DNA from: Phycisphaerae bacterium
Lineage (GTDB): Bacteria > Planctomycetota > Phycisphaerae > Phycisphaerales > SM1A02
Direction: 5' to 3'
DNA: 47,964 bases
Assembly: GCA_002689385.1 (NCBI GenBank)
Contig: NZFX01000058.1
Coordinates: 1-47,964 of the forward strand
Position 1 is the first letter of the stretch; each line of letters starts with the position of its first letter. The notes beneath the pieces are model-generated. The model made no database searches. It was not told the DNA's origin and saw only the letters and a program-made list of their open reading frames with translations. Positions 30,586 through 32,160 of this stretch are shown piece after piece. The position numbers and the translations under genes were made by a program.

Positions 30586-30843
30586 ATGGTAAATGACAAA
30601 GCCAATTTAAACACAACACTCTTTAACGAAGTGCAAGCAGTTATTGAACTAATCCGCCCTTCAATTCAAGCTGATGACGGAGACATTGAATTAATTGACG
30701 TTGATAGTGCTGGCGTTGTCTCCATACGATTTCTTGGAGCGTGCATCGGTTGCCCCTCGCTTGATATGACCCTTCAAGCAACGATTGAGATGACGCTCAA
30801 GAGTCGAGTGGAAGCGGTCACTGCCGTCAAAGCCGTTGAATAA
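30586..30843 (+). CDS. NifU-like C-terminal domain protein
   Basis: 85 residues from the ATG at 30586. It consists of the NifU C-terminal domain only: IRPSIQADDGDIELIDVD, then FLGACIGCPSLDMTL with the CxxC that holds a transient iron-sulfur cluster in the family. Such small proteins carry Fe-S clusters to apo-enzymes in the cytoplasm. TACTAT ends 8 nt before the ATG and there is no Shine-Dalgarno sequence, so the mRNA may be leaderless. It diverges from the lipoprotein operon and precedes csrA. Confidence 0.9.
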   Translation: MVNDKANLNTTLFNEVQAVIELIRPSIQADDGDIELIDVDSAGVVSIRFLGACIGCPSLDMTLQATIEMTLKSRVEAVTAVKAVE

Positions 30844-31000: not shown

Positions 31001-31225
31001 ATGCTTGTAATTACACGAAGAGAAGGCGAAGAGATTGTTATTGGTGATCCAAACAATCCAATTGGTACCGTACGTATAGCATCAATTAAAGGCGACAGAG
31101 TGCGAATTGCATTTGATTTCCCGCGCGAAGTTGCCGTTCATAGGCATGAGATTGCGGAAGAAATAATGCAAAATGGCCCTGCTATCGCAGGCAAAATTCT
31201 CCCAACTGGCTCTGAACCAAAATAA
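31001..31225 (+). CDS. csrA: Carbon storage regulator (CsrA/RsmA)
   Basis: 74 residues. The start MLVITRREGEEIVIG is the CsrA hallmark, with GDRVRIAFDFPREVAVHRHEI following, including the conserved RNA-contact residues near Leu4/Arg6 and Arg44. CsrA dimers bind GGA motifs in hairpin loops or near ribosome-binding sites and change mRNA translation or stability. No flagellar gene or fliW is adjacent, unlike in many bacteria. A strong AGGAGG precedes the ATG at 31001. A GGA-hairpin RNA is encoded on the opposite strand 115 bp downstream. Confidence 0.96.
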   Translation: MLVITRREGEEIVIGDPNNPIGTVRIASIKGDRVRIAFDFPREVAVHRHEIAEEIMQNGPAIAGKILPTGSEPK

Positions 31226-31283
31226 ATATAGCGGTTCATTTCTTAGAGGTTTTACACCATGACTAGAATCACTTTTAAATTTT

Positions 31284-31302
31284 CAAAGTGACAGTCACTT
31301 TG
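31284..31302. promoter_or_regulatory. Perfect palindrome CAAAGTGA-N3-TCACTTTG after csrA
   Basis: 8-bp arms around CAG, 58 bp after the csrA stop. Nearly the same palindrome (centre CTG) lies at 37838-37854. Both are followed by a CCTCAGAG-type repeat unit. It could be a protein-binding site or a hairpin that limits csrA read-through; there is no U-tract right after it. Confidence 0.5.
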
Positions 31303-31314
31303 CAATCGAGATTA

Positions 31315-31334
31315 ACTCCTCAGAGACGTTTTTT
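31315..31334 (+). repeat. Intergenic repeat unit, CCTCAGAG family
   Basis: ACTCCTCAGAGACGTTTTTT differs from the unit at 4197-4216 at one of 20 positions. It lies between the csrA-side palindrome and the terminator of the opposite-strand RNA. No inverse partner is found nearby. Confidence 0.7.
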
Positions 31335-31339
31335 GTGCT

Positions 31340-31385
31340 AAAAATAAAGAAGGCCCGCGGCATGTGGTGGGTCATGCCGAGGGCC
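31340..31385 (-). terminator. Intrinsic terminator of the small RNA
   Basis: On the minus strand GGCCC-T-CGGCATG pairs with CATGCCG-C-GGGCC around an 8-nt loop (12 pairs, one mismatch), directly followed by TTCTTTATTTTT. The plus strand has no U-tract after the stem, so the direction is clear. Confidence 0.88.
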
Positions 31386-31613
31386 AAAGGGAAGGTTGGC
31401 CGAGCATTTCGCTCAACCGACTTGAGGAATGGTTCTCGACCCGGGCAGGAGTCGAGAACCGATGTTGATCAGTACCTTGCGTCCGTGCAGGCACTTTCTC
31501 GCCTATGAGCCATCCTTGGCTCGCAAATTGCAGTTTGCACTGCGTATATTTCATGCAAGGTGGCAGCGTCGTCCCTGACGCAATTCCCCTTGCGAACGGA
31601 GCATCCGTGCTCT
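31340..31613 (-). ncRNA. Structured small RNA, candidate CsrA-sequestering (CsrB/RsmZ-like) RNA
   Basis: About 274 nt without an open reading frame, made of consecutive hairpins and closed by an intrinsic terminator (31352-31385 plus U-tract). In order: GAGCA-CGGA-TGCTC (31612-31599); CGCAA-GGGGAA-TTGCG (31594-31579), overlapping GCGTC-AGGGAC-GACGC (31581-31566); GCAGT-GCAA-ACTGC; GAGCCA-AGGA-TGGCTC (31522-31507); a TGC-ACGGAC-GCA hairpin extended by GTGCC/GGTAC (31494-31472); and a perfect 10-bp stem at 31431-31460. Five hairpins show GGA in the loop, two of them mutually exclusive. TATAAC at 31614-31619 is a possible -10, though it may lie a few bases too close; otherwise the RNA is the 3' end of the mraZ transcript. 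It fits no tmRNA, RNase P, SRP or 6S pattern that I know. Structure is seen; CsrA binding is inferred. Confidence 0.62.
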
Positions 31614-31641
31614 GTTATAGAAATCTGATTAAGTACAATCA

Positions 31642-32103
31642 TCATGGCCGCTGCGCTCTGCTTTTCCTGACTCGGTGCATGAGATCGCGTAGTTGTTGCG
31701 GCATTATCTCGTCTTCTGAAGCGCCTCTGTTGTTCGCATCCACAACTTCCAAATGTGTTTGCACACCTAAGAGCATCGCTTGCCGTTCTATCTGTGCAAA
31801 TTTGAGAAGTTTTTCTGGAAGGCGAATCCGACCTGCTTTGTCTATCTCGAGTCGACTCGTTTTCGAAAAAATCTCCCGCGCCAACTCCATCTCTACTTCC
31901 TCTTGAAGCCCTGATTGCTCGAGCATGCTCGCCCAAGCTTCGAACTTTAATTCTGGCCAGAGCCAAATCGAATCGTTGGGTCCCGGAGAAGCGTACACAA
32001 CTGCTGAACCATCTTCCGTGACAAATGCCTTGCGCATCTCTTTTGGTATAGAGATTCGCTGCTTTTCGTCGATAGAACGTTCTGTTTGACCTGTAAATAA
32101 CAT
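31642..32103 (-). CDS. mraZ: Transcriptional regulator MraZ
   Basis: 153 residues with two SpoVT/AbrB-like DNA-binding repeats: the first around LFTGQTERSIDEKQRISIPKEMR, the second around RLEIDKAGRIRLPEKLL, each with the DxKxR-type turn. MraZ forms rings that bind spaced TGGGN repeats and usually represses the division and cell-wall cluster that it heads. Here no rsmH, ftsL or mur gene follows; the next element on this strand is the structured RNA. Three MraZ boxes lie upstream, so autoregulation is likely. It has an unusually polar, Arg-rich C-terminal tail. Confidence 0.93.
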   Translation of the reverse strand: MLFTGQTERSIDEKQRISIPKEMRKAFVTEDGSAVVYASPGPNDSIWLWPELKFEAWASMLEQSGLQEEVEMELAREIFSKTSRLEIDKAGRIRLPEKLLKFAQIERQAMLLGVQTHLEVVDANNRGASEDEIMPQQLRDLMHRVRKSRAQRP

Positions 32104-32135: not shown

Positions 32136-32160
32136 CCCCACAGTACCCCACCTTTCCCCA
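32136..32160 (-). promoter_or_regulatory. MraZ operator: three TGGGG boxes spaced by 5 bp
   Basis: On the minus strand TGGGG-N5-TGGGG-N5-TGGGG (boxes at 32156-32160, 32146-32150 and 32136-32140), 32 bp before the mraZ start. The 10-bp period is the layout known for MraZ binding, so this is very probably the autoregulatory operator. Confidence 0.85.

Follow-up and report, generated by a model that had tools for sequence, protein, structure and literature searches.

RsmX, RsmY, RsmZ, CsrB and CsrC, small RNAs of Gammaproteobacteria, carry several GGA sites in hairpin loops and end in an intrinsic terminator, as does the element described here. Dedicated CsrA-sequestering RNAs are reported from Gammaproteobacteria (PMC4333381, PMC7652899). 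The high-affinity site of CsrA/RsmE was described as an ANGGAX hexaloop sitting directly on a stem, N being free and the described stem being closed by a C-G pair (Duss et al. 2014, PMC4005645); the SELEX consensus RUACARGGAUGU (PMC7652899) agrees with it. For other phyla, with Planctomycetes named, the protein FliW was proposed as the alternative, and the same paper left open the use of inhibitory RNAs by FliW-encoding species (Zere et al. 2015, PMC4682653). Among the open-access literature matches listed, none reports a CsrA-binding RNA in Planctomycetota by its title and the start of its abstract.

Several other RNAs share single features with the locus. TwoAYGGAY (RF01731, Clostridia) and Bacillaceae-1 (RF01690, Bacillales/Lactobacillales) were proposed as CsrA-binding candidates from their CsrA-type loops, without validation in that text (the RMfam paper, PMC4333381). 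The Campylobacter jejuni flaA mRNA leader is a CsrA antagonist with two CANGGANG-like hexaloops and probably binds one CsrA dimer (PMC4894983). UpsM of Rhodobacter sphaeroides is an sRNA made from the mraZ 5' leader and tied to Hfq (PMC5089854), and stable RNA pieces come from within mraZ and its operon in E. coli (PMC6156199).

The window analyzed here, the whole stretch of 47,964 nucleotides, comes from a Phycisphaerae bacterium whose genome assembly consists of 1.94 Mb in 87 contigs. It contains a structured element on the minus strand between mraZ, on the same strand, and a convergent csrA on the plus strand (Table 1). The element is probably a CsrA sponge, as judged from the high-affinity CsrA sites in its hairpin loops, and in Phycisphaerales such an element is usually found 3' of mraZ. 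We place a probability of about 0.75 on a CsrA-sequestering RNA of the Csr/Rsm type, encoded on the mraZ strand, most likely either as the 3' UTR of the mraZ mRNA or as a short processing product of that mRNA. Like the RsmX/RsmY/RsmZ and CsrB/CsrC RNAs, it presents several GGA sites in hairpin loops, here in the ANGGAN form that RsmE binds best (PMC4005645). Unlike them, it lies 3' of mraZ in another phylum, in a group where FliW was found in 39 of 41 genomes searched, and it has a conserved C-rich 3' module. TwoAYGGAY and Bacillaceae-1 have two motifs each, whereas the window RNA has four. It shares hexaloops and a likely mRNA origin with the flaA leader, which is however the 5' leader of a flagellin gene. 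With UpsM it shares a probable tie to mraZ transcription, but UpsM is a 5' leader connected with Hfq rather than CsrA.

Table 1. Features of the locus in window coordinates, listed along the minus strand from the upstream side of mraZ to csrA.
Feature	Position	Strand	Remarks
Three TGGG repeats	32137-32160	minus	10-nt spacing, MraZ-box-like; upstream of mraZ
mraZ	31642-32103	minus	PF02381, 64.8 bits
Small open reading frame	31469-31645	minus	58 codons; overlaps mraZ stop, spans all four ANGGA loops
Structured RNA	31340-31624	minus	covariance-model match 31342-31630; both ends approximate
Closing helix of 5' domain	31496-31622	minus	UUCU (31619-31622) with AGAA (31496-31499); RNAalifold columns 16-19 with 145-148
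Hairpin 1	31596-31615	minus	hexaloop ACGGAU (31603-31608); 96.7% of cells paired; both-side changes in 3/7 pairs
Hairpin 2 with outer helix GCAAGG/CCUUGC	31555-31593	minus	hairpin 31566-31581 inside the outer helix, hexaloop AGGGAC (31571-31576); 92.3% and 93.6% of cells paired
Hairpin 3	31530-31543	minus	without GGA; helices 4 and 5, 92.3% and 76.9% of cells paired
Hairpin 4	31507-31522	minus	hexaloop AAGGAU (31512-31517); 100% of cells paired; both-side changes in 3/5 pairs
Hairpin 5	31471-31495	minus	hexaloop ACGGAC (31481-31486); 97.1% of cells paired; both-side changes in 4/8 pairs
Hairpin 6	31431-31460	minus	12-bp stem; 97.8% of cells paired
Unpaired UUCCUCAAG	31421-31429	minus	invariant across the 11 genus sequences of one alignment (columns T200-G208)
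Hairpin 7	31398-31418	minus	weakest multi-pair helix, 77.3% of cells paired; not predicted by RNAalifold
ACCUUCCC and intrinsic terminator	31340-31396	minus	terminator 31352-31385, C-rich loop GACCCACCAC, U tract
csrA	31001-31225	plus	PF02599, 60 bits; convergent to the RNA; the genome's second, more divergent CsrA

The minus strand at 31336-31640 has a folding energy of -123.6 kcal/mol (z -6.05), and none of 100 shuffles folded as well. The chain of hairpins noticed in the preliminary description is thus borne out, and with homologs in the genus and the order it is larger than was claimed. The single 10-bp stem drawn before the terminator turned out to be two stems of 12 bp and 8 bp. The extent given, 31340-31613, falls short at the 5' end, since a conserved closing helix reaches to about 31622. 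The plus strand of the region has a good fold too (z -4.73), but a plus-strand RNA was rejected because ANGGAN loops are nearly absent from that strand: the opposite strand holds 1 such hairpin among the csrA loci (L034), 0 opposite mraZ in 138 loci, and 2 in total in the 39 csrA loci that hold mraZ.

The element is conserved. When 61 genomes were searched at the DNA level, each of the 12 other genomes from the window's genus proved to have a homolog; at E 0.01 the DNA matches extend to 7 of 42 genera, with short matches only beyond the genus. In the 11 complete sequences from the genus, successive ANGGA motifs are spaced by 32, 59 and 31 nt (eight sequences) or by 32, 65 and 31 nt (three sequences). 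For covariation, 13 loci, two of them partial, were aligned by sequence alone and scored against the window's own fold, with 500 shuffles as the control. Over 68 pairs, 93.9% of the cells are paired as against 85.8% in shuffles, both-side changes are found in 33 pairs (shuffles 17.3), and 91 cells show both-side changes (shuffles 27.1); no shuffle was as high in any of the three. Altogether four of five measures lie above all 500 shuffles, and the fifth, further pair types, does not (67 vs 66.9). Slid control structures pair 32-42% of the cells, a comparison that by itself favors the real structure because the reference came from one of the aligned sequences. Within the genus the loops are conserved while the stems covary.

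RNAalifold, run unaided, gave nearly the same fold, missing hairpin 7 and adding the closing helix UUCU/AGAA, whose window coordinates were counted from the RNAalifold columns. Taken pair by pair over 13 sequences, this helix has both sides changed with the pair kept in 5, 0, 2 and 1 sequences and is broken in 0, 1, 3 and 1.

Beyond the genus, 72 loci (71 csrA neighborhoods and one other) were scanned with a covariance model, which found the RNA at E <=0.01 in 31, of which 3 are from the model's own genus. At E 0.1 it matches 65 of the 181 family genomes, in 20 of 45 genera, some of the matches being to the terminator only. A scan that uses no model (ANGGAN hexaloop, stem of at least 4 bp) found 2-5 hairpins in many of the 500-nt minus-strand stretches 3' of csrA, whereas the plus strand gave a single hairpin overall and base shuffles gave 0.01-0.07 per stretch. 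In genera g13, g48 and g50, incomplete matches to the model were considered as a paralogous RNA; the two loci read, L280 and L282, are ordinary mraZ loci and the idea was dropped. Genome G024 (4% contamination) is alone in having two places; the second, L278 (contig C17, 108-234), carries the 3' module at the contig start and is a duplicate, a paralog or contamination.

At the curated (gathering) threshold no Rfam model matches within 31340-31624 or in the loci of eight relatives, and the rest of the window yields two tRNAs only, which is also all that ARAGORN finds in the whole window. The CsrB, CsrC, RsmX, RsmY and RsmZ models give no match up to E 10 in 31200-31700, and TwoAYGGAY and Bacillaceae-1 none at gathering in the window or the eight relatives' loci. 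Weaker matches, below that threshold, concerned sX13, a plant snoRNA and a CRISPR repeat and were judged to be chance or shape only; the best of them, sX13 (RF02232; 17.6 bits vs gathering 50, E 0.5), probably reflects shape only. The covariation, the GGA loops kept in relatives and the lack of an Rfam match to a known, unrelated family together support the earlier reading of the element as a putative CsrA-sequestering RNA.

All five GGA sites listed earlier are present and, as had been stated, four of them are A-N-GGA. These four are hexaloops closed by a C-G pair, which is the form of the CsrA/RsmE high-affinity site. The remaining site, GGGGA at 31585-31589, lacks the A-N-GGA form and shares positions with the covarying helix GCAAGG/CCUUGC. 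ANGGA is enriched in the window RNA (4 vs 1.1; 1.1% of 2000 shuffles reach 4). A strict scan of both strands of the whole window (stem of at least 4 bp) found four ANGGAN hairpins, three of them within the RNA, whose fourth site has a 2-bp inner stem and was missed. Total GGA is not enriched (5 vs 4.5 in base shuffles), as would be expected from chance or from an ordinary terminator region next to csrA. Such an origin is contradicted already by the conservation over the order, and also by the fold z-score, the covariation, the order-wide hairpins and the specificity of the loops, and its likelihood is negligible.

The loop specificity extends over the order. The 108 Phycisphaerales loci contain 1098 hexaloop hairpins 3' of mraZ. 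Of these, 178 show the pattern A.GGA., and the next pattern is tenfold less frequent (17). The closing pair is C-G in 148 of the 178 and in 458 of all 1098, and the N base is A in 68, C in 50, U in 36 and G in 24. The pattern accounts for 0 of 1196 on the opposite strand and 2 of 300 in other Planctomycetota (30 best-scoring mraZ loci of 128 genomes). These hairpins fit the consensus given by Duss et al. (2014, PMC4005645). E. coli CsrB, the control, has no strict hexaloop hairpins, unlike the window RNA family. The scan is thus specific to the SELEX/RsmE hexaloop, and the likeness is to that site and not to the CsrB repeats. Loops that act as decoys for the ribosome, being Shine-Dalgarno mimics, or for another GGA-binding protein would also show GGA, and a decoy role would accord with the pyrimidine-rich stretches conserved in the 3' module. 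A free N and a preferred C-G closing pair, as for RsmE (PMC4005645), would however be needless in a Shine-Dalgarno mimic, and CsrA itself is encoded in all 30 Phycisphaerales genomes examined, so that decoys of this sort are extremely improbable.

The preliminary description gave csrA as the neighbor. The two are adjacent in the window, but among relatives the RNA tracks mraZ. Of 80 csrA neighborhoods 39 hold mraZ, nine of them from the window's genus (L025, L026, L029-L032, L054, L056 and L063). Every one of the 39 carries at least one hairpin on the mraZ strand within 480 nt beyond the 3' end of the gene, and 37 carry two or more. A cluster (two within 300 nt) occurs in none of the 36 csrA loci that lack mraZ and have contig room (Fisher p 2e-19, kinship ignored). 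Five loci whose contig ends within 570 nt of csrA (L027, L028, L033, L049 and L052) were left out of the mraZ-less set; three of them (L028, L049 and L052) do carry a cluster. The cluster stays with mraZ both where mraZ is inverted (L091) and where it lies upstream of csrA (L103). Wherever RNA and mraZ share a contig, the RNA is 3' of mraZ on the same strand. The gene beyond it varies: csrA on either strand, GreA, triose-phosphate isomerase, RNase D and others, as read from translations. Because the 36 mraZ-less csrA loci have no cluster and the downstream gene differs between families, csrA was rejected as the reason for the RNA's location. Of the two origins proposed before, a gene of its own or the 3' end of the mraZ mRNA, the second is favored, since the RNA follows mraZ while its other neighbor changes.

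The order-wide sample comprised 110 mraZ loci from 235 mraZ genomes, 80 chosen for genus spread and 30 by score; L205 and L243 were too short and were dropped, leaving 108. Hairpins overlapping the last 20 nt of mraZ were counted in the mraZ-locus scans. In the 480 nt 3' of the stop, 90 loci have one to six strict hairpins (six in L226), 52 have at least two and 56 fewer than two, and the opposite strand has none. Thirteen of the 18 loci without a strict hairpin have one with a 3-bp stem. By family, loci with at least one and at least two hairpins number 29 and 23 of 29 (f1), 27 and 13 of 35 (f2), 1 and 1 of 1 (f3), 2 and 0 of 6 (f4), 6 and 4 of 8 (f5), and 25 and 11 of 29 (f6). In the 30 best-scoring mraZ loci of the 128 other Planctomycetota genomes, two have a single hairpin and the rest none; one of these two is the one locus of the 30 that comes from another order of the same class. 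The three genomes of the class from outside the order are without a clear cluster. An rsmH-like gene follows mraZ in two of the three extra-order loci read.

The RNA ends in a C-rich module. Among 29 model matches, the final 70 nt include CUUCCC ahead of the terminator in 25 and CCCACC, in the terminator loop, in 27. Such conservation exceeds what a terminator or the structure needs. Our guess is that the module may base-pair with purine-rich mRNA sites as an antisense seed. The module also bears on a cis effect, in which CsrA binds the hairpins and stabilizes or destabilizes the mraZ transcript through its 3' end, with no meaningful titration. The invariable same-strand position 3' of mraZ would suit this, as would the many loci outside the home family that have one strict hairpin only, rather little for a sponge. 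On the other hand, the window RNA offers four sites and other loci as many as six, several high-affinity hexaloops followed by a terminator amount to a sponge design, and a simple target site would not need a 3' module with conserved unpaired motifs of its own in most listed family members. A purely cis-acting role is therefore unlikely.

The preliminary description had the region free of open reading frames. This was wrong; a 58-codon frame covers the 5' half of the RNA and is open in 12 of 13 genus sequences, with a stop codon just after the fourth loop in 11 of 13. Its start codon is at -4 or -1 relative to the mraZ stop in 11 of 12 and at -8 in one, and in 11 of 12 loop 1 lies a whole number of triplets beyond the mraZ stop. 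Such features would be expected if the 5' half were a small protein, translated by coupling from mraZ, with the hairpins serving that gene. The pN/pS of 0.76, as against 0.94 and 1.01 in the other two frames, is in the same direction. However, the 3' region of the RNA, without such a frame, has 0.43-0.82. The codon positions diverge evenly (0.367/0.330/0.364; permutation p 0.36) with no third-position excess, unlike csrA (0.166/0.049/0.519). Moreover, the frame is not kept in other genera: an ATG-started frame of at least 30 codons at the mraZ stop is found in 8 of 29 loci in f1, 5 of 35 in f2, 2 of 6 in f4 and 0 of 29 in f6. As the explanation of the hairpins, a protein-coding role is very unlikely; the 5' half leans non-coding, and if the frame is translated, its peptide is without visible codon-level selection.

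The distance from the mraZ stop to the first loop is 20-45 nt, and by eye the stretch upstream of the RNA has no obvious conserved promoter. Co-transcription with mraZ would be the simpler reading. A consensus promoter scan found none on the minus strand near 31630-32000 and none upstream of mraZ either, which makes the scan uninformative about a promoter of the RNA's own. The best reading of the arrangement is that the RNA would be produced as the 3' part of the mraZ transcript or from a gene just after mraZ.

Upstream of mraZ are TGGG repeats with a 10-nt period, which we take to be MraZ-box-like. Transcription of Csr/Rsm RNAs is typically activated by a GacA/UvrY-type regulator; the feature seen upstream here is this MraZ-box-like array. 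The repeats are present in 38 of 39 loci in the csrA set, 21 of 34 in the order and 11 of 27 elsewhere, as against 0, 0 and 3 for the reverse complement and 1, 2 and 1 for the reversed motif in the same three sets; loci with <150 nt upstream of mraZ or without a tblastn match were dropped to give these totals. The MraZ of E. coli represses its own gene (PMC8475190, citing Eraso 2014).

The window's genome encodes two CsrA proteins, one in a fliW-csrA pair (118 + 89 bits) and the divergent one beside the RNA (59 bits). The pair is on contig C33 of G000 (loci L022 and L023). A NifU-like gene (30586-30843, plus strand) lies just upstream of the divergent csrA, as in 73 of the 80 csrA loci. With the fliW-csrA pair in the genome, CsrA in this lineage may be antagonized by a protein and by an RNA in parallel. 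The divergent CsrA aligns with CsrA proteins of known structure, with four residues inserted; it keeps the VHR.EI stretch, which presumably has a role in RNA contact.

The divergent type is the only CsrA in 15 of 15 genus g44 genomes examined (among G065-G080) and in G013 and G017, in which two FliW was not found. All 11 g44 mraZ loci scanned have 2-4 hairpins, so that the partner in g44, if there is one, would have to be the divergent CsrA. Hairpins are still present in genomes with FliW-type CsrA only (G040, G044 and G060 of f5 with 3, 2 and 1; G266 of f6 with 1). Four f4 genomes with both types have 0, 0, 0 and 1, the six f4 mraZ loci L215-L220 are almost without strict hairpins, and the f5 genome G056 has CsrA and no hairpins. 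By these exceptions in f4, f5 and f6, the divergent CsrA does not appear to be an exclusive partner.

With four ANGGAN sites, each sponge RNA could hold about two CsrA dimers, and holding CsrA would free its mRNAs from CsrA repression. Since the loops carry the high-affinity site, the RNA probably soaks up CsrA in this way. The MraZ-box-like repeats suggest that MraZ may control its own gene and the sponge together, which would tie CsrA activity to a division regulator. A broader scheme is conceivable but doubtful. In it, MraZ of Phycisphaerales would have left the division cluster and joined a CsrA sponge in one MraZ-controlled transcription unit, through which a regulator of division would govern CsrA activity globally; the RNA would be bifunctional, with CsrA hexaloops in its 5' half and a C-rich base-pairing 3' half, and the mraZ-coupled frame of the genus would let ribosomes gate the sponge.

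The RNA would represent a new family, in a lineage for which the protein FliW is the presumed CsrA antagonist. Across the order the family carries the best CsrA site known, and if the predicted binding is true, the question of inhibitory RNAs in FliW-encoding species gets a concrete candidate. RNA antagonism of CsrA would then have arisen more than once, or would be older than thought. To our knowledge, the role of mraZ is poorly understood outside a few model bacteria; if the reading is true, CsrA would be linked to it.
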